The notes beneath the pieces are model-generated. The model had not been told where the DNA came from. It did no database searches and worked only from the letters and a program-made list of their open reading frames with translations. This document shows positions 32,440 through 57,262 of a stretch of 64,000 bases of DNA, piece after piece. The DNA comes from Bolinopsis microptera. Its lineage: Eukaryota; Ctenophora; Tentaculata; Lobata; Bolinopsidae. How positions within the stretch are numbered: the stretch's first letter is position 1; the number at the start of each line of letters is the position of its first letter. The DNA lies in NCBI RefSeq assembly GCF_026151205.1, contig NC_087084.1:2944845-3008844 (forward strand), read 5' to 3'. The position numbers were made by a program, and so were the translations under genes.

Positions 32440-32835
32440 TATGTGTATCTACAAATCTTTCGAGGTTGTTTTTACAAGAGACAGGGCTTGCTACGCAAGG
32501 GAAGAAAACCGGGAGAAACAATCACAAATTATACAAATAAATATTATAAAACCTAGCAAAAAGAAATTCAAACAATCCTACACTAGACTACAAAAGTTTA
32601 TTACATACTACAGTGTAATACACGATAAATAAATGCTGTATAATCAAGAAACAGGGCTTGCAGGGCAAGGGACGGAACACAGGGACTGGTTACAGAGTGT
32701 ATAAAACAGTGATTCAGCAAGTACCCATTGGGTATTGCTGAATCTGACCCACAAAATACCACAATCAATACAAGAATATACAATATAACTAACATCATGT
32801 TTATACAAGAATCAGGGCATGCAGAGCAAGAGAAG
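32440..32835 (-). repeat. Repeated hairpin motif in the LINE 3' UTR
   Basis: Three copies about 160-170 bp apart (32,474-32,502; 32,644-32,672; 32,805-32,833) of ACAAGAnACAGGGCTTGCnnn followed by GCAAGGGA (plus-strand writing). CTTGC and GCAAG can pair around a 3-base loop. The loop varies (TAC, AGG, AGA) while the stem is mostly kept. The motif also occurs at 31,216 and at 38,520. Confidence 0.75.
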
Positions 32836-33421
32836 AAAAATAAGAGAAAAACTCCAACACATGTATACCCCTTTGTCCAGTAAATAACAATAATTACTTG
32901 TACACAAAGCTGTATAATATAAAATACATAACAAATACACACTACACAGTCTACCCAATACACGAGTTAAAAATTAGAATTAGAATTAGAATCAAATTTA
33001 CACAGCAATACAATAAGAATAAAAATAATTTAAGAGGCTTCAATCTGCTGTGCAGGACATTCAAGTCAGTCGAAAACTGTTAGCAGAACACCCTTCTAGG
33101 GAAATAAGGATATAGTTTGTAAAACATAATGAGTAATAAAATAATGAGTGATAAAATAAGATATGATTTAACAGTGAACTGTGGGCATGAAGGTAACAAT
33201 TAAGATTACATAGATGCCCACTTTGGGATTACGTTAGTAATGTTATTTACAGTTATATACAGAGAAGTATAGAACAATAATAGATTGGCAATGATAAAAA
33301 ATGGGAACGAATAAAGGAGATGTTTAAAGTTCTATACTTCTGGAAATACCTAGGTCATATATAACTCAGGGGGCCTTTCCACCCGACAAAAACTCCAGCC
33401 CCATAAAATTTGTTTCAGTTG

Positions 33422-36418
33422 TCACATAGCTAGAGTGTAGAAATAGTCGAAACTATTGTTTATTTCATAGGATGAGACTCCTTGAATTACATCTGACATA
33501 AATTTAGATTTCATACATTGTGAGAATTTTACACTACATTCTATAGTCCTTATGTTCTCTGGAATTGTATTCCAACATTTTGCACCTAAATATGTAAAGG
33601 TTTTGTGTGTTCTGGATTTGTGAATATAAAGGTTGCACCTCTCAGCATCACGTGATCCTCCGGATACATAAGAAAATTTATCTGTGAATGATGATGGTGC
33701 AGCCTCATTAAGAATTTTATACATATACGTTGACAGATGGAGTTGTCTTCTTAAGTGTAAGGGTAACCACTTCATATTTCGATATACATTTACTGATGGT
33801 TCCTGCCAATGAACATCCAGAGCAATTTTTGCTACTTTCTTGTATAATATATCAAGAGAATTAAGTTTGGTTTTGGCAGCCCTGCACCATATTATATCCA
33901 GGTAGTCAAATTGGGGGAGCATAAGAGCATTTACAAACATTTTTCTATATTTCAGTGGAAGAAGATTTTTCGACCTGTATAATGCCCCTATTCTTTTAGC
34001 AATTTTTGATTTCACATAATCAATATGGTCATGAAAGTTCAATAAATTGTCTATCATGAGACCTAAATATTTTTGAGATTTAGTTTCTTCTATAAATAGG
34101 CATTCTTTTTCCAAATCCAGAGGGATTGACAACGTGTCCAGATTAGGTGATCTATCAAATACAATGAATGAAGATTTTGCAGCATTTAGTCTCAGCTTGT
34201 TGATTCTAAGCCATTCATACACAATTTTCATATCCTTAATTACATTCTCATATATGCCTCGGGAAATGTTATCAAAATATAGTGCACTGTCATCTGCAAA
34301 TAAGTAAACAGTAGATTGTGTGCAATTTCTACTGAGATCATTTATGAATAAACTAAATAGAATTGGTCCTAATATGCTACCCTGTGGCACACCTGTTTTA
34401 ACAGGGAGTGATGTGCTTACATTACCACGTATTTTGGTGTGTTGCTTTCTGTCCCCCAGGTAGCTTTTGAACCACTTTATGACAAAGCCATCAACTCCAT
34501 AATACTTAAGTTTTTTTAATAAAATATTATGGCTTACTGTGTCAAAGGCCTTTTTGATATCTAAGAATACAATTGCAGGTTTCTTCTGTGATTCCTTAGA
34601 CGTAAATATTTTATCAAATAGATTAAGCATTAGAAAAGTGGTGGAATGATCTTTTCTAAAACCATACTGATGGTTGGTAAGCAGTTTATTTGTTTCAACA
34701 TACTCTGTAAGCTGTTGGTTAACAAAATATTCTATGCATTTTCCAAGTAGGGGGAGTATGGATATTGGCCGGTAGTTATTTGGATCATTAGGGTCACCAG
34801 TTTTAAGAATTGGAGTGACTGATGCAATTTTACATGCCAACGGCATTGTTCCACTTTTCATACTAAGGTTTATAATATGAGCTACTGGATCGATGATTTG
34901 GGGAATAATATACTTATATATTTTAATGGGCATGATATCGTTAATCGATTTATCTGATGGTATACTGAGTATATATTCTTTTACTTGTTCAACAGTCACC
35001 TCTTCGAATACAGAGAGTTTACACTCTGTTGGAGGCGGCATATATTCTAGGAAGTCGTCTGAATCCTTTTCCTTAATCGATTCTTGTATTATTGTACCAA
35101 CTGTGGCAAAATGCAGGTTAACTCCGTTAACATTTAAGTTGCTTGGGGAAGAGCTACTTATTTTTCCAGGTAAGTTTGAAGCATGTTTGATAGTTTTCCA
35201 AATGCCTTTTAAATCGTTTTTTGCACTTTTCACAGTAAGGTCCTGAACAATATTTGTACGTCTGTTTTCTTTGGATAATTTTGTCACATAGTTTCTTTGG
35301 GGACGATAGTTGTCCCACGAAGTAGAGCATTTCTTATGTAGTTCACTTTTTCTGCATTTACATATTCCATTAATACAATTACACTTGAATTTGTTTAATT
35401 GTCCTAAGCACTTTTTATACTTTCTGAAAAGCATCTTCTTCTTCCGTATTTCTGCCAACAGTTCTTTAGAGGGATTACAGAGAAAGTTACTATTACATTT
35501 TATCTGTTTAGGTGGACAGTAATTATCATACGATTCCTGGATGTGATGATTAAGTCCATCTAGGGCATGGTCTACATTAGTACAGCTTAGAATATTACTG
35601 TAGTTGCTGCAGGATCCCAGAAAATAGCTTAAGGCTTTCAGATTGTTTAAGGAGTGGTCTCTGATAAGAACCTTCTGGAATTTACTAGCTTTACTTACTT
35701 TAAAGTCGAGAACACATTTGAGAGCTTGGTGATCTCCTATTCTATCATCAAGTACTTTACACTCTATGAAATTAGAGTAACAGTTAGTCATGACAACATC
35801 TATTGTGCTCTGCGTTATCCTACCATCTAAGTTTGCAACTCTAGTAATTCCTGTAACAGTCTGTATCATTCCAAAGAGCTTCATTGTTATATCTAACTTT
35901 TTATAATCTAGATCAGATAAAGAGTTTTGGTTAACATTAACATCGCCAATCCATATTACTTTCTTACCTTGAAGTTTCATCATACATTCAGTCATATAAT
36001 CAAGGAAAGTATCTAGGTGACAAAAGTTTTGTGATCTGTAGAAGCAGCAAATGTAAAGATTGGCATCCTTGAGTTGTATCCATATAGCTTCGATTTTAGA
36101 AATATCAGAGTAAGTTATATCTAAATTGAGTAATTTGTGGTTTACATTTTGGTTGATCAATATACCACACCCTCCTCTTCCTCTATCGTTAGGTCTATCA
36201 CACCTTATAAAATCAAAGTTTAAGGGGAAGTTAAGTGTACTAGTGTCTATATCAGATTTAAGGTTTGTCTCATTAATTCCAATTATGTCAAGCTTTTCGC
36301 GAAATATTAGCTCCTGTAGTTCAAGAGTTTTTGCCAGATTAGTCAGGCCACCCTGTATATTACATAGACCAAGAGAGAGATTATCGTTTATTGAGGTACG
36401 AATGTGGTAATAATAAAG
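33422..36418 (-). CDS. LINE ORF2: EEP endonuclease + reverse transcriptase
   Basis: Target-primed retrotransposition enzyme. The open frame runs from after a TAA at 36,421 to the stop at 33,422, about 998 codons. The first 86 codons contain no ATG yet encode endonuclease blocks (SLGLCNIQGGL, DIIGINETNL), so translation may start on a non-ATG codon, by reinitiation after ORF1, or from a lost ATG. Endonuclease motifs: NIQG, GINET, WIGDVNVNQ, STIDVV, GDHQAL. RT motifs: YRPISILPLLGK, GFRKDHSTT, FLDIKKAFDTVSH, TGVPQGSILGPILF and the catalytic FADDSALYF, then thumb/connection to the end. The VPQGSILGP form fits the CR1/L2/Jockey group. Confidence 0.92.
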   Translation of the reverse strand, partial: LYYYHIRTSINDNLSLGLCNIQGGLTNLAKTLELQELIFREKLDIIGINETNLKSDIDTSTLNFPLNFDFIRCDRPNDRGRGGCGILINQNVNHKLLNLDITYSDISKIEAIWIQLKDANLYICCFYRSQNFCHLDTFLDYMTECMMKLQGKKVIWIGDVNVNQNSLSDLDYKKLDITMKLFGMIQTVTGITRVANLDGRITQSTIDVVMTNCYSNFIECKVLDDRIGDHQALKCVLDFKVSKASKFQKVLIRDHSLNNLKALSYFLGSCSNYSNILSCTNVDHALDGLNHHIQESYDNYCPPKQIKCNSNFLCNPSKELLAEIRKKKMLFRKYKKCLGQLNKFKCNCINGICKCRKSELHKKCSTSWDNYRPQRNYVTKLSKENRRTNIVQDLTVKSAKNDLKGIWKTIKHASNLPGKISSSSPSNLNVNGVNLHFATVGTIIQESIKEKDSDDFLEYMPPPTECKLSVFEEVTVEQVKEYILSIPSDKSINDIMPIKIYKYIIPQIIDPVAHIINLSMKSGTMPLACKIASVTPILKTGDPNDPNNYRPISILPLLGKCIEYFVNQQLTEYVETNKLLTNHQYGFRKDHSTTFLMLNLFDKIFTSKESQKKPAIVFLDIKKAFDTVSHNILLKKLKYYGVDGFVIKWFKSYLGDRKQHTKIRGNVSTSLPVKTGVPQGSILGPILFSLFINDLSRNCTQSTVYLFADDSALYFDNISRGIYENVIKDMKIVYEWLRINKLRLNAAKSSFIVFDRSPNLDTLSIPLDLEKECLFIEETKSQKYLGLMIDNLLNFHDHIDYVKSKIAKRIGALYRSKNLLPLKYRKMFVNALMLPQFDYLDIIWCRAAKTKLNSLDILYKKVAKIALDVHWQEPSVNVYRNMKWLPLHLRRQLHLSTYMYKILNEAAPSSFTDKFSYVSGGSRDAERCNLYIHKSRTHKTFTYLGAKCWNTIPENIRTIECSVKFSQCMKSKFMSDVIQGVSSYEINNSFDYFYTLAM

Positions 36419-36594
36419 TTAAAAGGAGGACAAATCTATACGTTTCTTCTTCAAGCAATTTAAATAAAATTCATGACATTTAGTTTTATGTCATGCTGAT
36501 TTATTTGTGACTTAATAATTTAAAATGTGATTCTTTGATAAAAGTATCAAATACTCATTTAACTACAGAACTTTCTACAATCTGAATGGAGAGA

Positions 36595-38331
36595 CTAAGT
36601 TTGCTCATTGTGGGATAAATATTTTAAATGTTTCGCCAACCTGGCGATTCCCTTGATATTAAGGTGAACATTATCTATTCCCTTTTTGAAAAATACCTGT
36701 TTCCTTACTCCAGTAACTCGGCTGGTAAATAGTCTATTATTACGTTCTAAATCTATATAATTTAACCCATGGCTAGAGCAGGTGTTAGAAATAAACCTAT
36801 TTAATTCGTTGATAACTTCATTTTTGTTATAACTGTTCCTAGGTAAAATATTTATAACTGAAATTCTTGCTCCAATAAACATTCCCCAAAGTATACTAAG
36901 TATTTGATCAATTCCTTCTGTTGCATTTTTCATAGAAATATAATTGTTACAGACAGAATCTACGTAGTTTGTACCTGTTAGTATGAAAACACGCTTTACA
37001 TCCTTTTTGTCCAGTTTTTTGAACTCCTCATCATGTAACAGCCTATTTAACATTTGAGCAGAGTTCGCTCCAGGGTAGAAGAACACCATAGCTTTCTGCT
37101 TCCTCAAACTTAGTAGAGTTCCGTTGAGGTCCCTGAACATACTGCTGCTGATGTAGATGGTATCAATTGGCAGGTCACTTGGGATCTGTTCAGGTGAAGG
37201 AGGCGCTGCAGTTGACTTGGCTGAACTCTTAACTCTGGAATGGTGGACTTCAAATTCACTTTCGTTGTAGGGTACATATCCACTAGCTGGAGAAGGTGAT
37301 TTTCTTGGTTGACTGCAGACAACTGGTTTGATAAGTCTAAAAGTTAAACTGATCCTTTTGTCTGTGCATAGTGGATCGGGACATAGTTCATGGTTGAATT
37401 GATGTTGGGACTTTTTGGACATAAGACATACATCTCCATTTTCTAAAATTAGGGAAGTCACCACTTGTCCTGTTTTGATTTCAGTCAACTGCATCATCCT
37501 GGAAGCACCAAGGGACACTGTTACAATGTACGAATTTTCTTCAATAAATTCTTCATTGTCACTATGAGCAGGCATATGTTCCTCTCCAGATTCATAGAGA
37601 TTGACCAGAACACTGTTGTAGTTGTATTCTGGGAATAGCTCATCTAGAAAGGAACATATACTTGCCATGTAAGATCCCTGGGGGATCTTCTTTGGGTCAT
37701 GCATTCCTCCACTGTACACGTAAGGATGTTTCCCAAAGTAGACTGATTTCCTGTTATGGAAGTGGTGGCTGAACTTTAATTCCTCAAATAAGATTTCAAC
37801 AGAAAATTTGCTGAATGGTGCCTGTTCAATAAGTTCAACAGGTGTGATGGCGATATCAGGGATTTCATAGTCTGTAGTAAGGTCTGAACTTGACACAGGT
37901 GTTAAATCTAATCCTGCATAATATTCACCACTTCTTGGAATAACTGAGCCAGTGTCTGTAATCTCGCTGGTTGAAATGTCTATGTTGTTAGAAATAATTG
38001 ATAGAGGTGCTTCTACATAGCCATCATCATCAATCAACAAAAATGATTCTGGTACCTCACATTCATTGTCATACTGAATGTTATTGTTGCTGGAGTCCGT
38101 TTGCACTGATACATCGAAACACTTGTATTGAGCAATTGATTGGTTTCCACTTTGAGGCGAAATAGTTTCATTAATCTCTGCTATTGTTTGTGAGGTTTGA
38201 ACAATCTCCTCTAAAATGAACACTTTACGCTCCAGAAACTTCACGCGAGTTTCAAGATCTGAACAGTTTGTACATTTTGTATCACATTCCATCAATAATT
38301 TGCCGAAAAATGTTTCCAATGAATCGTTCAT
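36595..38331 (-). CDS. LINE ORF1: coiled coil, AlkB-like dioxygenase, SGNH hydrolase
   Basis: 578 codons. Residues about 25-60 form a short coiled coil (ETRVKFLERKVFILEEIV). Residues about 185-335 match the AlkB family of 2OG-Fe(II) dioxygenases, which oxidatively demethylate nucleic-acid bases: VYFGKHPYVYSGG, then LVNLYESGEEHMPAHSDNEE (HxD iron ligands), IVTVSLGASR, GDVCLMSKKSQHQFNHE (second histidine) and RISLTFR (2-oxoglutarate arginines). Residues about 390-575 look like an SGNH/GDSL hydrolase: DTIYISSSMFRDL (block I serine), ILTGTNYVD (G and N blocks) and DNVHLNIKGIARLA (D-x-x-H). Esterase-type ORF1 domains are known in CR1-like LINEs; the added AlkB-like domain is the unusual part. Partner ORF2 lies downstream. 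Confidence 0.85.
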   Translation of the reverse strand: MNDSLETFFGKLLMECDTKCTNCSDLETRVKFLERKVFILEEIVQTSQTIAEINETISPQSGNQSIAQYKCFDVSVQTDSSNNNIQYDNECEVPESFLLIDDDGYVEAPLSIISNNIDISTSEITDTGSVIPRSGEYYAGLDLTPVSSSDLTTDYEIPDIAITPVELIEQAPFSKFSVEILFEELKFSHHFHNRKSVYFGKHPYVYSGGMHDPKKIPQGSYMASICSFLDELFPEYNYNSVLVNLYESGEEHMPAHSDNEEFIEENSYIVTVSLGASRMMQLTEIKTGQVVTSLILENGDVCLMSKKSQHQFNHELCPDPLCTDKRISLTFRLIKPVVCSQPRKSPSPASGYVPYNESEFEVHHSRVKSSAKSTAAPPSPEQIPSDLPIDTIYISSSMFRDLNGTLLSLRKQKAMVFFYPGANSAQMLNRLLHDEEFKKLDKKDVKRVFILTGTNYVDSVCNNYISMKNATEGIDQILSILWGMFIGARISVINILPRNSYNKNEVINELNRFISNTCSSHGLNYIDLERNNRLFTSRVTGVRKQVFFKKGIDNVHLNIKGIARLAKHLKYLSHNEQT

Positions 38332-38345
38332 GATGTTGAGTTGGT

Positions 38346-38647
38346 TGAGTTGGTTGTAGATAAATAGATTGATTGAAGTCGATTGAAGTTGATTGAAGTT
38401 GATTGAATAGATTTGATACCTCCAATTACATTACATTTTTGTCATGTTGGTCATTTTGGTCATACCTCAATAAATGTATTTAATTGTAGTTGTGAAAATA
38501 GTTTAAAACTCTTGTATAAACAAGAGACAGGGCTTGCATAGCAAGGGAAGAGATATAAGAGGACCAGGTAAAAAGTGTTTATTACAGTATCCAGTGAAGA
38601 ATAAACTAAATATAGAGTATCTACAGTGTAATATACTCTCAATAATA
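38346..38647 (-). other. 3' UTR of the R2-like fragment
   Basis: Follows the stop of the endonuclease ORF. Contains one copy of the CTTGCnnnGCAAG hairpin motif (38,520-38,548) that is also repeated in the neighbouring LINE, and GTTGATTGAA repeats at 38,370-38,405. Confidence 0.55.
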
Positions 38648-39689
38648 TTATATGTCTAAGACCATCCTGAGAATTCTGGCTGATCCAAGCAAAGCTGTCT
38701 TCTGGAGATTAGAGATGCTCAGATTGCAGTGGACTGCGTCGAGGTGTTTACGAAAGTTAATGGTGATAGTTCCTAATGCGCCTATCACCACAGGGACGAT
38801 TGTGACCTTTCGTAAATTCCAGTTCTTCTTAATTTCTCTTTTTAGGTCTTGATATTTCAGTATCTTTTCTTGTTCTCTATCCAGGATCCGGGTATCTCCT
38901 GGGACTGCAACGTCAATGATGGTTGCTGCGTTGGTTACCTTGTCTACCAGGAGGAGATCTGGTCTGCAGTGTTCGATAACGTGGTCCGACTGGACATGGA
39001 AGTCCCACAATATCTTGACTTTTTCGTTCTCCAGCACCTTCTCTGCCCGGTGTTCGTACCACCTTTTACTGCGTGGGAAGCCGTATTCCTTGCACAGACT
39101 CCAGTGCAATGCGGCAGCTACTTTGTCATGCCGACACTTATATTCTGTCTGTGAAAGTTTTGGGCACCCATTCAGTATGTGGTCTATTGTCTCGTAATGA
39201 TTTCTGCAGAGTCTGCAGAGGGGAGAAGAGCCAGGTGTTTTGTCAATCCTGTGCTTCACATAATTAGTCCTAAGTGCTTGGTCTTGGGCTGCTATCAACA
39301 ATCCTTCTGTCTCCTTCTTCAAGTCTTGTTGAGTGAGCCAGTTCCAAGAGGTTAACGGGTCCGCTATACCCATCATTTGCCTTGGGAACTGTCCGTGCAT
39401 CACTTTAGCAGTCCACTTCTCCTTGCGGATTTCCTCGCGTTGTGTTCGGTCGATATCTTTCTCTATCTCTTCACCCAAGAGTATCTTGTCTTTGACAAAG
39501 TAGTCCTTCAGTGCAATCAGTTCTGGGTCTCTACTTCTCACCACATAGGTGGTGAGTGCATTCTCCTCTCTCTTTACGACTTCCTCTATACTATGTAGCC
39601 CACGGCCACCCAGTTGACGGCTTACGTATAACCGATCAACATCTCCTTGGGGGTGGTGAGCTCCATTTATCCTCATCAGTTTCCTGGTC
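38648..39689 (-). pseudogene. 3' part of an R2-like LINE with restriction-like endonuclease
   Basis: 5'-truncated ORF, 342 codons from the first ATG (39,676), in frame up to about 39,689 (TRKLM RINGAHHPQGDVDRLYV). The middle holds a zinc-binding cluster CRLCRNHYETIDHILNGC (C-x2-C-x7-H-x4-C), then RPDLLLVDK...IIDVAVPGD, the PD...D core of the restriction-like endonuclease used by R2/NeSL-type elements for target cleavage, and ends ALLGSARILRMVLDI. The fingers and palm of the RT are absent. It starts abruptly at a TATTATTATT microsatellite, consistent with 5' truncation. The reading frame itself is uninterrupted. Confidence 0.85.
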
Positions 39690-50482: not shown

Positions 50483-50994
50483 TATAGGTAAATTTATAAA
50501 TAATTATTAAATTTATTAATTGTAAATTAATACTTACTTTACTTGAACATTCAGACATTGTTTAATAAGAGAAATAACAAAAAACATATGTTTATCGCTA
50601 TTATTAAAAATATTTATTTTCCTTATTATTATATTAATTAAAGATTTCCCACAGAATCTATTATTATCAAAGTAAAGCAAGTAAATACGACGAAGAAAAG
50701 AGTGTCCCGCACTGTTGTACCATGTAAATACGATACTGCCGAGAGAAAGATCCTACAGAAAGACATTGTAAATACGACCATTGTAGGATACGAGTCATGT
50801 TGTTTGAATTTTGTACAATTTTACTTAATATTTACAGTATTATTAAAGAATATTATTAAAGAATATCATTAAAAATTAGAAATGATCCATTGGTTGCTGC
50901 TGCAGCTGGCTCTATTTCGAAGATTTCGAAAATGAGGCAAATTACCTTGAGGGAATGTGAATTGTATGCGCCTGAAAACCAAAGCTTCAATACT

Positions 50995-51792
50995 GCCATC
51001 TAAAGTGAGACTGTCTTAAGTGAGACTGTCTTAAGTGAGACTGTCTAAAGTGAGACTGTCTAAAGTGAGACTGTCTAAAGTGAGACTGTCTAAAGTGAGA
51101 CTGTCTAAAGTTAGACTGTCTTAAGTGAGACTGTCTTAAGTGAGACTGTCTTAAGTGAGACTGTCTAAAGTGAGACTGTCTAAAGTGAGACTGTCTTAAG
51201 TGAGACTGTCTAAAGTGAGACTGTCTAAAGTTAGACTGTCTTAAGTGAGACTGTCTTAAGTGAGACTGTCTAAAGTGAGACTGTCTAAAGTGAGACTGTC
51301 TAAAGTTAGACTGTCTAAAGTTAGACTGTCTTAAGTGAGACTGTCTTAAGTGAGACTGTCTAAAGTGAGACTGTCTAAAGTGAGACTGTCTAAAGTGAGA
51401 CTGTCTAAAGTGAGACTGTCTTAAGTGAGACTGTCTAAAGTGAGACTGTCTAAAGTTAGACTGTCTTAAGTGAGACTGTCTAAAGTGAGACTGTCTAAAG
51501 TGAGACTGTCTTAAGTGAGACTGTCTAAAGTGAGACTGTCTAAAGTTAGACTGTCTTAAGTGAGACTGTCTTAAGTGAGACTGTCTTAAGTGAGACTGTC
51601 TTAAGTGAGACTGTCTTAAGTGAGACTGTCTTAAGTGAGACTGTCTTAAGTGAGACTGTCTTAAGTGAGACTGTCTTAAGTGAGACTGTCTTAAGTGAGA
51701 CTGTCTTAAGTGAGACTGTCTTAAGTGAGACTGTCTAAAGTGAGACTGTCTAAAGTGAGACTGTCTTAAGTGAGACTGTCTTAAGTGAGACT
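50995..51792. repeat. 15-bp minisatellite, long allele (about 53 units)
   Basis: Units TGAGACTGTCTTAAG, TGAGACTGTCTAAAG and TTAGACTGTCTTAAG in a partly periodic order. Its unit length is a multiple of three, so it stays open in several frames, giving a 285-codon LRQSH/FRQSH-type ORF that is not a gene. Lies about 510 bp past the integrin stop. Confidence 0.97.
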
Positions 51793-51799
51793 GTTTTTC

Positions 51800-53204
51800 C
51801 CACTTTGGACACTGTACGATCCACCTGTATGATTCACTTAGCACAAAAATAACAATTCAGTCCCTCCCGGTAGTTTCTGATTTTCATAGAGTACGTTTTT
51901 TTTCCTCTTTTCAGGGTTGCACTCATAATACCTTGCGGGCAGTATTTTTCCTGACTGTAAACGGACATATTTGAACTTTTAATTTGATATCTAGACATTT
52001 TCGGACATAACTAGATTCGTTTGAGTTTTATAACAAATCTTGGGTTTGATTTGAAAGTCTGCATCTAATTTATTGTATTATTCTTAATTTTTTAATACCT
52101 TTTAATTGTCCTTTTAGTTTACATTTTCCGTTGCAGATTATCGAAAATGTTTAAACATTTATCTTTTAATTTTCACAGTGAAAAATTAAACTTGATCAGC
52201 TTTTACATTTTTATCTACACATTTTTATCTTGGTTAGATTTGACGTTCTGTTTGGAAGTTTAGGCTGAAGTGTGTTATAATACTAGTCATGTGCAACATT
52301 TTGTAGATCTTAAACTCTGATATATACATCCTAATTATGATTGGATAGCATTGATGGCATGCAGTACGCGGGACTCGGGAGGTTTATCATTTTTGTACTG
52401 ATACTTTCCTCCATTTGAATACCTGCATCATTTACAACTATTCAATTATTGGTGAAAGTAAATTTATAATAATATGTACATACGTACGTCATGTAGTCAT
52501 GTAGTCATGCACAATACATGAAAACTTAACACAATTTTTCTTAGGTTTTAAGTGCTATTCTTTCTGGGGTATGACTGTTAAGTAATGTTTTTATTTCTTT
52601 AACATCATAAACAATAAAGTGATATGAATCGAAACAGTAAAATAAAATCTGCAGTATTATTAATCAGTTATTATTTCAAGCGTTTAAGTAGTATGATTTC
52701 TGAATTCTGATGTTTACGTACTAAATTCCAGTGTTGATTCCATTTCCACAATGATCAATTTTATATTATTTGATGCAAATATGCCGCCCAATTAATCAGA
52801 AAAAATAGGCCAGTCTTTCTTTAAAACATGAAGCTGCAGTATTTCCCCTATTCGAACGGACGGAATCGTGTGACATATTGATTGATAAAATATGGTATTT
52901 TATTGTTGTTTTACGCTTTGTATTATGATTGACCCGTTCTAACTTCGGAAGAAGAAACAAAGTCTCTTAAAGTTCATAACTCAAACTGATAACACTACTT
53001 CAATTACATGTTAAGATATTAAGATAATACTGAAATTACCTTTCGATTGAAACTTTCAAGTAAAATGCAGCATTTATTACATGCGATGCGAAAATTGCCT
53101 GTATGCTGTAATTATATGCTAATAATATAAGGGCGATGTTACCTGTTATACTGGCACGCCTTGCCTCACCTTTGACCTTGTAGGCCCGCCGCGCATGAGT
53201 GAGC
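51800..53204. other. Flank of the right arm, no gene seen
   Basis: Matches 2,239-3,640 in reverse. Ends at the GC-rich hairpin GCCGCGCATGAGTGAGCGGC. Confidence 0.6.
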
Positions 53205-53950: not shown

Positions 53951-56900
53951 GTGCACCCCCGAAAAAAAGCCGGGCATCCTCAGAACAAGCCCGTGATGAT
54001 GGTGATGTGGGTTAATCAAGATGTAACAGATTCCGGAACTATGGGAGCACCATCTGTCATCTTACCGTTTTATTTACTGTATGTGGGAACATCTACTGAT
54101 GAAGTAGCTATCAAGAGAGCCATTCCAGTGGCGCAGGTGGCTCACGTGTCACATAGCCAACAGAAAAGAAACATGATGAATAGTTCTTACAGCACTAGGG
54201 TATCAGCCCCTACTTTTGTTTCTGGACGAGAAGGTGGTAATGATTTCACCAACTTAAATCCGAATGGAAGGTTGGTGAATGATGAGCCTAATCAACCTGA
54301 AACACCCAACAGCATAAACGAAAACAACAAAAAAAGTTTATTTTCATGTACCGACATTACCTGGGTAGGCACTCTTAACACTAGAACGATAAGAACTACC
54401 CAGAGGAAACTGGAGATGGTACATCTTTTCGAGAAGAGCGGCGCAGAGATTGTAGGTATCCAAGAGCACAGGATAGTTCATGAAGAGCCTGTCAGAGTAG
54501 AGAGAGTTGGCAAGAGCAGCTATCTAATTACTTCATCAGCTACTAGGAATAGGGCCCAGGCATCAGTGGGCGGAGTGGGATTCATCCTAACAAGCAAGGC
54601 ATTTGACGCAACTACGGAGATAACACCAGTGACGGAGAGAATCCTTAAGATATCTCTCAATGGGAATCCTAAACCAACCTTCGTCTGTGTCTATGGACCT
54701 ACGGAGGCAGATAGTGTAGAAGCAGCAGAAAAGTTTCATAACGATCTAAGGTGTGCAGTCTCGCAGATCCCTGCTCACAACTTCTTGGAGGTGATTGGGG
54801 ATTTTAACGCTCACCTATCAAAGAGGGACGAGAATGACTGTGGTTGGTATTTCCATGAGAGAACCAACAGAAATGGGGAGCTGCTTCGGGATACTGCCCT
54901 GGAATGTAATCTGGAGATTACAAACACCAGGTTCAGAAAGAAGCGGGGTAAGATGTGGACTCACCTATCGGATGGAACCCTGAATAAGTCTCAGATAGAC
55001 TTTATTCTAGTGAGGAAGAAGTGGAGGAACAGTATCAAAGACACTGAAGTCTACAGTTTCTTTAGTACATTGGGTACTGATCATAGATTTGTTTTGTCTA
55101 AGATCAAGCTATCTCTTCGACGAGCAAAAAAGCAACCCAAGAAAACCTGGTATAATTGGGGAGCACTAAAATCGGATGAAGACCTACAGAAGAGATATGC
55201 AGTAGAAGTCAAGAATCGGTACTCTGCTTTATGCGAGCAAACCGATGAAAGTGAGGTTACGGAACTGTATGGGCATTTTGTTGATGCGATTGCTGATACC
55301 AACAAAGCCATACTGCCTAAGAGAGAAAAGAAGAGACGTGACGATTTCGCGGGTGATCAGCGAGTTCAAAACGTGCGTACAGCGTTGCAGCAAGCAGAGA
55401 CTGTCTATCACCGGGATCCTAGTGAAGACAGTCGACTGTCTGTTAACGTACTTAAAACTGAACTGGATCAGGTGTACCAGGACATCTTTGAAGAAGATCT
55501 AGTTGCCAAGGTTAGAAGGGTCGAAATGGCTGCAGACAGATGCAAAAATAAAGAAAGTTGGAATGTCATAAATGAGATTACTGGTAGGAAGGCCAAGGGG
55601 GCAACTCAAATAAGGGGCAACGGAGCCGAAGAGAGGAAGGAAAATTGGCTTAGGCATTTCACGAATCTTTTAGGGAGTACACCTGATGTGGAAAACGAAC
55701 ATCCTAGGATCGAGACTCAATTTGAAGGACTCAACATCAGTACAGAACCTTTTACTCTAGAGGAGCTCAAAGCTGCCAAACTCAGGATTAAAGAAGGTAA
55801 AGCACCAGGTGATGATGGTATACCACCTGAAGTCCTCAAAAGATGCGACCTGGATGAAATCGTGTTGTCCTTCTGCAACAAAGCCCTGACAGATGGTATT
55901 GCGCCAGATCAGTGGAGGATAAGCAACATCATTCCGGTCCCCAAAAAGGGAGACTTGACAAACCCTGGAAACTGGAGGGGGATATCTTTGACTTCACTTG
56001 TAGCAAAGACTCTTAATAGAATGGTGCTTAATAGGATCCAGCCGGCTATAGAAGGGGTACTTAGGGACACTCAGAATGGTTTTCGGGAAGGACGGTCCAC
56101 TACTAGTCATATCTTGGCACTCAGAAGGATACTAGAGGGGGCTAGACAGAGAAATCTACCGGCAGCTATGGTGTTTGTTGACTTTAAGAAGGCCTTTGAT
56201 TCACTTCACCGGGGAATTTTGATGCAAATACTAAAGGCCTATGGGATACCAGACAGTATTGTGGATATCATTAATCTACTCTATGTCAACACGAAGGGCA
56301 AAGTTATTACACCTGATGGGGATACTGAGCTATTTGATATCCTGGCAGGAGTTCTTCAAGGGGATACGTTAGCACCATACTTGTTCATTATAGCCCTTGA
56401 CTATTGCATGAGACAAGCCTTAAGCAAGCACCCTGAAATAGGATTTACCATTAAGCCTTATAGGAGTAGGAGAGTTAAGGCGGAGAAGATATCAGACACT
56501 GGTTTTGCAGATGACATTGCACTGATAGCAGATACTGTAAAGGAGGCAGAGACACTGATGCTAGAGGTAGAAAGGGTTGCTGCTACAGTTGGACTTAGAA
56601 TGAATGAAGGGAAAACCAAATTCATTACTCAGAACATCGAGAACCCTGATACCATCAAGTCCCTGGGTAACAGTACAATAGAGCATGTGGAAGACTTCAC
56701 CTATCTGGGTTCTAGAATCAGAGACAGTGAGAGTGATATCAGGGTTAGGAAAGGAAGAGCATGGGGAGCATGCCACACACTCAAAAAACTTTGGAATTCT
56801 AAGCTTAGAAAGTCTATCAAGATCAGAGTGTTTACAGCACTAGTGGAGTCGGTGCTACTGTACGGTTCCGAGACTTGGACAATGACGAAAAGGCTAGAGA

Positions 56901-57262
56901 AGATGGTTGATGGTTGCTATACACGAATGTTAAGAATGGCCCTTAACATCAATCAATATCGAGACCATGTCAGCAACCACAGCCTGTACGGTGATCTTCC
57001 CAAAGTCAGCTCCAAGATAACCCAACGAAGGCTCAGACTTGCAGGTCATGCTCACCGACATCCGGAGCTGACACTGAACAAACTGATCCTCTGGAAGCCG
57101 AGTCATGGGCATACTAACAGGGGGCGACCTCATTTAACACTACTAGATAACCTAAAAGCAGATACTGGGCTGAAGTCAGTAGATGAGATAGCTAAACTGA
57201 TGGAGGACAGAAAGCTGTGGAGAACTGTTGTCAATGGATCTCGGGAATACCACCCGCCTTAA
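53951..57262 (+). CDS. Intact RTE-like LINE ORF: EEP endonuclease + RT
   Basis: 1,103 codons without interruption, suggesting a young copy. The first 130 residues are low-complexity and may be partly 5' leader. Endonuclease: LNTRTIRTTQRKLEMV, IVGIQEHRI (catalytic E), VYGPTEAD, VIGDFNAHL (D, N), SQIDFILV and GTDHRFV (D, H). RT from about residue 600: KAPGDDGIPPEVLK, NWRGISLTS, GFREGRSTTSHI, FVDFKKAFDSLHRG (about 742), GVLQGDTLAPYLF, FADDIALI (about 850), then FTYLGSRI, SVLLYGSETW, RRLRLAGHAHR and RGRPHLTLLD. It nicks genomic DNA and primes reverse transcription there. Clade RTE or a close relative; exact clade uncertain. Confidence 0.92.
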   Translation: MHPRKKAGHPQNKPVMMVMWVNQDVTDSGTMGAPSVILPFYLLYVGTSTDEVAIKRAIPVAQVAHVSHSQQKRNMMNSSYSTRVSAPTFVSGREGGNDFTNLNPNGRLVNDEPNQPETPNSINENNKKSLFSCTDITWVGTLNTRTIRTTQRKLEMVHLFEKSGAEIVGIQEHRIVHEEPVRVERVGKSSYLITSSATRNRAQASVGGVGFILTSKAFDATTEITPVTERILKISLNGNPKPTFVCVYGPTEADSVEAAEKFHNDLRCAVSQIPAHNFLEVIGDFNAHLSKRDENDCGWYFHERTNRNGELLRDTALECNLEITNTRFRKKRGKMWTHLSDGTLNKSQIDFILVRKKWRNSIKDTEVYSFFSTLGTDHRFVLSKIKLSLRRAKKQPKKTWYNWGALKSDEDLQKRYAVEVKNRYSALCEQTDESEVTELYGHFVDAIADTNKAILPKREKKRRDDFAGDQRVQNVRTALQQAETVYHRDPSEDSRLSVNVLKTELDQVYQDIFEEDLVAKVRRVEMAADRCKNKESWNVINEITGRKAKGATQIRGNGAEERKENWLRHFTNLLGSTPDVENEHPRIETQFEGLNISTEPFTLEELKAAKLRIKEGKAPGDDGIPPEVLKRCDLDEIVLSFCNKALTDGIAPDQWRISNIIPVPKKGDLTNPGNWRGISLTSLVAKTLNRMVLNRIQPAIEGVLRDTQNGFREGRSTTSHILALRRILEGARQRNLPAAMVFVDFKKAFDSLHRGILMQILKAYGIPDSIVDIINLLYVNTKGKVITPDGDTELFDILAGVLQGDTLAPYLFIIALDYCMRQALSKHPEIGFTIKPYRSRRVKAEKISDTGFADDIALIADTVKEAETLMLEVERVAATVGLRMNEGKTKFITQNIENPDTIKSLGNSTIEHVEDFTYLGSRIRDSESDIRVRKGRAWGACHTLKKLWNSKLRKSIKIRVFTALVESVLLYGSETWTMTKRLEKMVDGCYTRMLRMALNINQYRDHVSNHSLYGDLPKVSSKITQRRLRLAGHAHRHPELTLNKLILWKPSHGHTNRGRPHLTLLDNLKADTGLKSVDEIAKLMEDRKLWRTVVNGSREYHPP

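Follow-up and report, generated by a model that had tools for sequence, protein, structure and literature searches.

The long interspersed nuclear element (LINE) described here lies on the minus strand of a 64,000-nucleotide stretch of Bolinopsis microptera DNA from contig NC_087084.1 (the whole stretch is called the window below), where it occupies 32972..38515 and measures 5544 bp, with its ends set by aligning copies. Its first open reading frame (ORF1; 36595..38331, 578 codons) joins an AlkB domain to an SGNH hydrolase domain; Pfam and a structural model give the order as a zinc/zipper-like coiled coil, a disordered linker, AlkB, a second linker and SGNH. The initial annotation had placed a LINE ORF1 of this length at these coordinates, and they hold on the minus strand; a plus-strand reading of the same interval is ruled out by stops throughout. 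Upstream is a 5′ untranslated region (UTR) of ~184 nt (38332..38515), delimited by copy alignments and the ORF1 ATG at 38331. ORF2, which encodes an endonuclease and a reverse transcriptase (RT), follows ORF1 at 33422..36160, and the element ends in a tail of ATTCTA repeats (32972..32993) recognized from the sequence and from shared copy ends. In the copy alignment, the 5′ edge of 12 copies of the window family (F1; L002-L013) falls at 38500-38519, and a 3′ end at query 447-455, or ~32972, is common to most of the listed copies.

The reading frame of ORF2 opens at 36418 but has no ATG before codon 142. The RT domain of ORF2 (residues 455-702; 34055..34798) matches RVT_1 at E 2.4e-39. The Pfam match of the endonuclease is weak in the window copy (E 0.0054) and firmer in the ORF2 of a relative, L063 (PF03372, E 2.1e-7). 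An endonuclease and RT in ORF2 with no RNase H match, together with short tandem repeats at the 3′ end, are features of CR1/L2-type LINEs, though not exclusive to them, and the zinc/zipper and esterase layout of ORF1 also fits. On these features the element can be called CR1/L2-like, as it was initially. The initial description of AlkB and SGNH together in a LINE ORF1 is right. The element has company, however: other LINE types and a Helitron have the same domain pair, and its 5′ module has been exchanged between families.

The AlkB domain, a 2-oxoglutarate (2OG)-Fe(II) dioxygenase, spans residues 165-335 (37327..37839), as judged from Pfam, model confidence and Foldseek. The motif set first noticed in the letters of the ORF turned out to lie in a strong profile match: PF13532 covers residues 202-332 at E 3.9e-20 and 73.3 bits, against a cut-off of 31.2. 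In searches of PDB sequences, the single ORF1 protein finds ALKBH3 (E 3.5e-7), and a 13-row AlkB profile finds ALKBH3 (1.5e-27), ALKBH2 (5e-25), ALKBH8 (5e-12) and AlkB (3e-8), with neither ALKBH5 nor FTO among all 51 of its matches. An AlphaFold2 model built from a 13-row alignment (mean predicted local distance difference test score, pLDDT, 67.4) has two folded parts, AlkB at ~165-335 and SGNH at ~385-575, and the remainder mostly scores below 50. Ten-residue blocks of the AlkB part mostly reach 70-93, and Foldseek orders its matches as ALKBH2 (3.2e-14), ALKBH3 (4.1e-13) and E. coli AlkB (8e-11), with template-modelling scores by target of ~0.6-0.77 over the first 24 rows. Matches among viral models are to the AlkB domains of plant RNA viruses and giant viruses. 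The predicted structure agrees with the two domains that had been proposed: one part folds like ALKBH2/ALKBH3, and the other is of SGNH type.

The iron- and cofactor-binding residues are all present. H256-S-D258-N-E260 (37552..37566) contains two iron ligands and a glutamate equivalent to ALKBH2 E175, H314 (37390..37392) is the distal iron ligand, and R326-ISLTF-R332 (37336..37356) holds the 2OG-binding arginines. We counted these residues across loci in a hidden Markov model (HMM) alignment that makes no demand for the D, the E or both R, setting aside rows picked by motif. Two of its 76 rows, both pieces of one broken copy, are gapped at these residues; in 74 of 74 ungapped rows, broken copies scored too, the H and D iron ligands, the following E, the distal H and both arginines are retained, and the tyrosine equivalent to ALKBH2 Y122 is found in 72 of 72 rows. 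The domain is present in 72 of the 77 loci fetched; 14 pairs of loci overlap, so that there are ~58 distinct places, and three loci (L031, L032, L033) are not placed in elements. In ALKBH2, E175 contacts the base, and the E175A mutation is reported to abolish activity on both 1-methyladenine (m1A) and 3-methylcytosine (m3C) (PMC12295762). Because the E175 and Y122 equivalents are kept, the element AlkB probably has an ALKBH2/3-like pocket of the m1A/m3C type. The VFG finger by which ALKBH2 is described as acting on duplex DNA (PMC10816986) has no counterpart of that sequence: the triad is found in 0 of 17 element representatives in an ungapped count from the R110 position, and the window copy reads LKF there. 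In a MAFFT alignment, all 68 element rows (~54 places) are gapped opposite V101 and F102; deletion of the duplex finger from element AlkBs was considered on this basis and ruled out, the ungapped recount showing the place to be filled.

The SGNH domain (residues 386-576; 36604..37176) carries the residues S397, G453-T-N455 and D553/H556, in line with the SGNH set that had been recognized by motif. Its Pfam matches fall under the cut-offs (PF13472, E 2.4e-5, residues 419-561, 25.3 bits against 32.9; PF00657, E 6e-4, likewise under). A 14-row SGNH profile gives clear matches that include PDB 4c1b, an 'ORF1-encoded protein' (E 3e-8), which was matched again in a further profile search at E 5e-10; on our own reading, 4c1b is the esterase of zebrafish ZfL2-1. 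Modelled alone, this half of the protein has a mean pLDDT of 91.2, and a fold search matches it to sialate esterases and platelet-activating factor acetylhydrolase. The catalytic serine, the block III G.N and the block V histidine are found in 17 of 17 and 14 of 14 rows, the serine by selection, since rows were cut by the motif around it; the DxxH aspartate is kept in the window family and lacking in both LC rows. By its profile matches to 4c1b, the SGNH part is homologous to a LINE ORF1 esterase of solved structure, as expected of a type IV ORF1. At the other end of the protein, a CxxC pair lies with predicted helices in residues 5-56 (38164..38319), a stretch that by eye resembles a zinc/leucine zipper; the AlphaFold2 helices, at residues 5-19 and 24-56, have low pLDDT.

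We searched the genome that holds the window (264.65 Mb in 232 contigs, with C1-C13 making up 97.5%) for further copies. The ORF1 query gave 75 scored matches among 821 candidates, including, with the window copy counted, 14 stop-free ORFs of 93-100% identity that cover the query in full or fall short of it by two residues. Further ORF1 families appear at ~59, 41-44 and 37% identity, many of their matches covering both domains. PF13532 has 151 matches (150 of 587 candidates scored), and the listed rows have no internal stop except the last. Profile strength and the many intact copies rule out a chance match or a lone odd copy; the ORF1 AlkB domain is confirmed as real, well beyond coincidence, and many copies and families have it. 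The fusion that the initial annotation had read from a single ORF therefore recurs, with a strong AlkB profile match, in many intact copies and relatives in this genome. A scan of IMG/VR with ORF1 found no relative. Two near-identical copies of the window family, L004 and L007 (C10:3978693-3989522), lie ~4 kb apart in opposite orientation, each with pieces of a second copy in its flank, as in a nested or inverted insertion.

The pair occurs in several layouts. Zinc/zipper-AlkB-SGNH is shared by the window copy, L023, L063, L064 and L070, and PHD-AlkB-SGNH by L066, L067, L068, L072 and L073, where the PHD finger was matched by Pfam in L066 alone (E 0.007) and assigned by alignment in the other four; in L068, another weak PHD match (0.0012) falls in the following ORF. 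A coiled coil of another kind precedes AlkB-SGNH in L069 and L074 (SGNH weak in L074, 0.04). L047 and L057 read AlkB-coiled coil-SGNH, with an SGNH part that rests on the motif where Pfam has no match, and this type has a different ORF2, seen in L062. That ORF2 (L062 105-3677) encodes a 1191-residue endonuclease-RT protein which, by eye, looks to be of a different LINE clade from that of the window element. A query of the PHD type had 65 matches, with 64 of 1269 candidates scored, and among the matches listed none spans both ends without AlkB. Of 51 ORF2 matches, 38 are complete at the 5′ end and 13 start later; for 32 of these 38, an AlkB-SGNH ORF1 match lies no more than 6 kb upstream, mostly ~440-660 bases away.

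The pair is also present outside LINEs. At L052 and L061 (C10:16874382-16884545), a single open frame of 3388 amino acids starts with SGNH, a Pro-rich stretch and AlkB, and its later part matches the Rep-like Helitron_like_N domain (3.3e-22) and the PIF1 helicase (6.8e-22) in Pfam. The SGNH-AlkB start is common to L035, L045 and L049, which were read up to the AlkB part. The AlkB and SGNH pair is thus shared by further LINE types and at least one Helitron ORF. In the same frame (L052 1-3399, L061 1-6846), DUF6570 follows AlkB and the C-terminal stretch looks cysteine protease-like by eye.

Selection on the domain was assessed by Nei-Gojobori counts in ten pairs, the more distant of which have high or saturated dS. 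AlkB is the part of highest amino-acid identity in nine of the ten, the exception being L068-L044 (C-terminal part 0.954, AlkB 0.947). In the five pairs with moderate synonymous change, the ratio of nonsynonymous to synonymous change (dN/dS) of AlkB is 0.26 (window-L014), 0.06 (L051-L057), 0.15 (L068-L044), 0.19 (L052-L059) and 0.18 (L035-L052), ratios that are raised by decay after insertion. These values lie below those of the N- and C-terminal parts in all five, narrowly so for the C-terminal part in two (0.26/0.28 and 0.15/0.20). Amino-acid changes in AlkB fall under the neutral share in five of five pairs tested, with p from 0.006 to 4e-20 (one of them, L063-L070, has a dS of 1.3). The window-L013 pair, with no synonymous and three amino-acid changes in AlkB, has too few to judge. 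Past AlkB, the Helitron sequence evolves close to neutrally (dN/dS 0.88-0.96; p 0.25), compared with 0.18-0.19 for AlkB itself. Purifying selection on the AlkB enzyme is therefore well supported.

The 5′ part of the element has moved as a unit. Compared with a second family, F2, F1 has ~45-78% DNA identity per 100 bases over the 5′ UTR and ORF1 and 93-100% from ~36436 onwards in three of three copies profiled, which puts the switch point, where identity rises from ~55% to 93-100%, at 36430..36440. In BLAST, the high-identity piece begins at 36436 in 11 of 12 F2 loci, and L029 gives an ORF1 piece only. The ORF2s of the two families are ~97% identical in DNA and 96-100% in protein, whereas the ORF1 proteins are ~59% identical. 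From the near-identical ORF2 and the diverged ORF1 it follows that the 5′ module, 5′ UTR and ORF1, was recently exchanged between F1 and F2 near the ORF1/ORF2 boundary. Such exchange has been inferred from deep trees and a route for it proposed (PMC4120745); a sharp ORF1 swap between elements with ~97% identical ORF2 DNA is a recent and well-marked example of module swapping.

In a 22-row AlkB tree, the 17 element rows form one clade (support 85/81, not starred) adjoining human ALKBH3 and the ALKBH3-like L032 and L033. Helitron rows are nested among LINE rows, and a tree that keeps the LINE rows together without the Helitrons is disfavoured (approximately unbiased (AU) test, p 0.036). The single element clade and the nested Helitron rows therefore suggest one capture followed by passage from LINEs to Helitrons; a single origin from an ALKBH2/3-type gene, with LINE-to-Helitron transfer, is moderately supported by this tree. 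At L033 and L078 (C5:22265392-22271000), a near single-copy ALKBH3-like ORF is followed ~0.7 kb downstream on the same strand by an SGNH ORF, with decayed fragments of the L033 AlkB part elsewhere on C5, possibly a cellular neighbour pair or an old element. L033, a candidate source of the module, has an AlkB that falls outside the element clade, and by eye no RT is present in the 2.3 kb beyond this locus.

Several other ORFs lie in the window. Just upstream of the element, a 342-residue ORF (38648-39676, minus strand) has a weak zf-RVT match and resembles the C-terminal part of another retroelement RT, and flanks at ~38520-38580 and ~32820-32870 look alike by eye, as if the element lay inside repeated sequence. 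A further LINE ORF on the plus strand (53951-57262; 1103 residues, endonuclease and RT, RVT_1 3.8e-32, DUF6451) has no AlkB match in the domain scan. A long ORF at 50987-51844 (minus strand) is a tandem repeat of (L/F)RQS(H/N), probably a repeat array.

Each half of this ORF1 has known counterparts. The AlkB part resembles ALKBH3 and ALKBH2 in fold, iron and 2OG residues, HxDxE motif, base-contact tyrosine and best profile and fold matches; unlike them, it sits in mobile elements, is fused to SGNH and does not have the ALKBH2 VFG triad. With the type IV esterase ORF1 of CR1/L2 LINEs such as ZfL2-1 (PMC3905857, PMC4120745) this ORF1 shares a zinc/zipper-like N-terminus and SGNH, but PMC4120745, which studied 448 elements and found esterase ORF1s in only two vertebrate groups, does not use the term 'AlkB' in its main text. 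Orchid Ty3/gypsy elements likewise encode an AlkB with complete cofactor residues, in their case a plant long terminal repeat element with a separate ORF for an ALKBH5-like demethylase of N6-methyladenosine (m6A) (PMC9289625). Plant RNA viruses are selfish RNA replicons with an AlkB for which protection of viral RNA has been proposed, although there the domain lies within viral polyproteins and not in a LINE ORF1 (PMC544882). GDSL esterase ORFs of bdelloid retroelements (PMC5408684) are, as here, SGNH ORFs common to unrelated retroelements, which points to exchange, and such sharing is also described in PMC6431247; 'AlkB' is absent from the main text of the bdelloid study. A retrotransposon-encoded AlkB and an esterase ORF1 are thus each already known, and their combination in a LINE or Helitron is provisionally new: full-text searches of open-licence papers found AlkB in neither among the papers listed, several of the searches covering the top 12-20 of up to 347, while subscription papers for the most part and repeat databases such as Repbase lie outside them.

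LINE RNA serves both as messenger and as template, and Helitrons go through single-stranded DNA. With a confidence just past the midpoint, we favour the interpretation that ORF1 is an element-encoded ALKBH2/3-type demethylase, joined to an SGNH esterase, that clears m1A and m3C from the single strands of the element. On this view, a single capture of a cellular ALKBH2/3-type gene would have supplied the AlkB, which was then joined to an SGNH ORF1; swaps of entire 5′ modules would have distributed it over LINE lineages, and Helitrons would have received it from LINEs. The ORF1 protein, thought to coat its own RNA in cis, would bring AlkB to the template, where the enzyme would strip Watson-Crick-face methyls (m1A, m3C) that would halt reverse transcription, to the presumed benefit of the element. 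Modifications of that face are reported to disturb reverse transcription, and laboratory protocols strip off m1A and m3C beforehand with AlkB enzymes (PMC11417395). The SGNH part may handle membrane or lipid contact, in keeping with the membrane binding proposed for the ZfL2-1 ORF1 esterase of zebrafish (PMC3905857). The single-stranded DNA intermediate of the Helitron would meet the same copying-blocking lesions. The initial annotation suggested protection of the RNA or evasion of a methylation-based defence, either of which may apply; the pocket residues speak for removal of lesions.

Other functions fit parts of these data. AlkB might instead erase m6A with a regulatory role, or other marks, from RNA of the element or the host and so shield the element from epitranscriptomic silencing, a role proposed for the orchid protein, which demethylates m6A in vitro (PMC9289625). 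We consider this unlikely here: the pocket is ALKBH2/3-like, with HxDxE and the Y122 equivalent, and the absence of ALKBH5 and FTO from the 51 profile matches points the same way. Given these pocket residues and profile matches, an ALKBH5/FTO-like m6A eraser is not favoured by sequence. Moreover, m6A writing is reported to aid L1 and ALKBH5 to suppress it (PMC7873242), so that m6A erasure need not help a LINE. A second possibility is that the AlkB fold chiefly binds nucleic acid, standing in for the RRM of other ORF1 types, with catalysis incidental. Neither an RRM nor a CCHC knuckle was matched in the seven ORF1s scanned by Pfam, hence some other RNA binder is needed; the iron and 2OG residues are nevertheless kept in every ungapped row, Helitron rows included, across ORF1s that are 20-59% identical to that of the window, and we regard a mainly binding role as improbable.

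The enzyme could also work on DNA, whether by repairing cDNA, the target site or, in Helitrons, the transposing strand or a duplex, or by removing DNA marks at insertion sites. DNA is a substrate of its close relatives ALKBH2 and AlkB, the first of which heads the fold matches; Helitron rows have hydrophobic LFI or IFV at the place of the ALKBH2 duplex finger, and one LINE type adds a PHD-like finger. Set against this, the VFG triad is missing from all 17 element representatives and the best sequence match is ALKBH3, a single-strand enzyme, and we hold a DNA substrate to be rather a long shot. Passenger capture of a host gene of no benefit to the element is very hard to credit: Helitrons are known to capture gene fragments (PMC6431247), but five of five pairs show purifying selection, and AlkB is found in divergent families and intact in many copies.

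Several points weigh against a single-strand demethylase that was captured once and retained throughout. The preference of the AlkB for single strands is not settled, since Foldseek places ALKBH2 above ALKBH3 and three Helitron rows carry LFI or IFV at the finger place, with the F matching ALKBH2 F102; Helitron rows have S in place of the phosphate contact R110, and S125, in the pocket, is variable. Enzymatic activity is predicted, and m1A and m3C on LINE RNA are putative substrates. The element clade has support of just 85/81, LINE-only monophyly is rejected at p 0.036 only, and the SGNH tree, which is poorly resolved and where long branches meet, neither confirms nor denies co-transfer of AlkB with SGNH. 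N-terminal parts are somewhat constrained too (two, p 0.012 and 0.076). Loci were drawn from the best matches, a choice that favours intact domains. Lastly, 6 of the 38 5′-complete ORF2 matches have no ORF1 match, one with an SGNH match just upstream and five unexplained, and AlkB-less versions are possible.

Of the parts of a LINE, the ORF1 protein is the least understood, and one with a conserved nucleic-acid demethylase turns into a clear, testable statement on what may block retrotransposition. The same enzyme pair in LINEs and a Helitron, which differ in replication chemistry and share a single-stranded form, suggests a common obstacle, and that mobile DNA can carry a cleaning enzyme of its own for its genetic material. 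More tentatively, and with some doubt, AlkB-SGNH may be a trafficked survival cassette of mobile DNA in this lineage, gained once from an ALKBH2/3-type gene, swapped among LINE families and handed to rolling-circle transposons; each would thereby be able to rid its single-stranded intermediate of polymerase-blocking methylation arising from natural damage or inflicted by the host. Were this true and the host the source of the marks, the finding would hint at an animal defence, so far unknown, that works by methylating transposon RNA or DNA.

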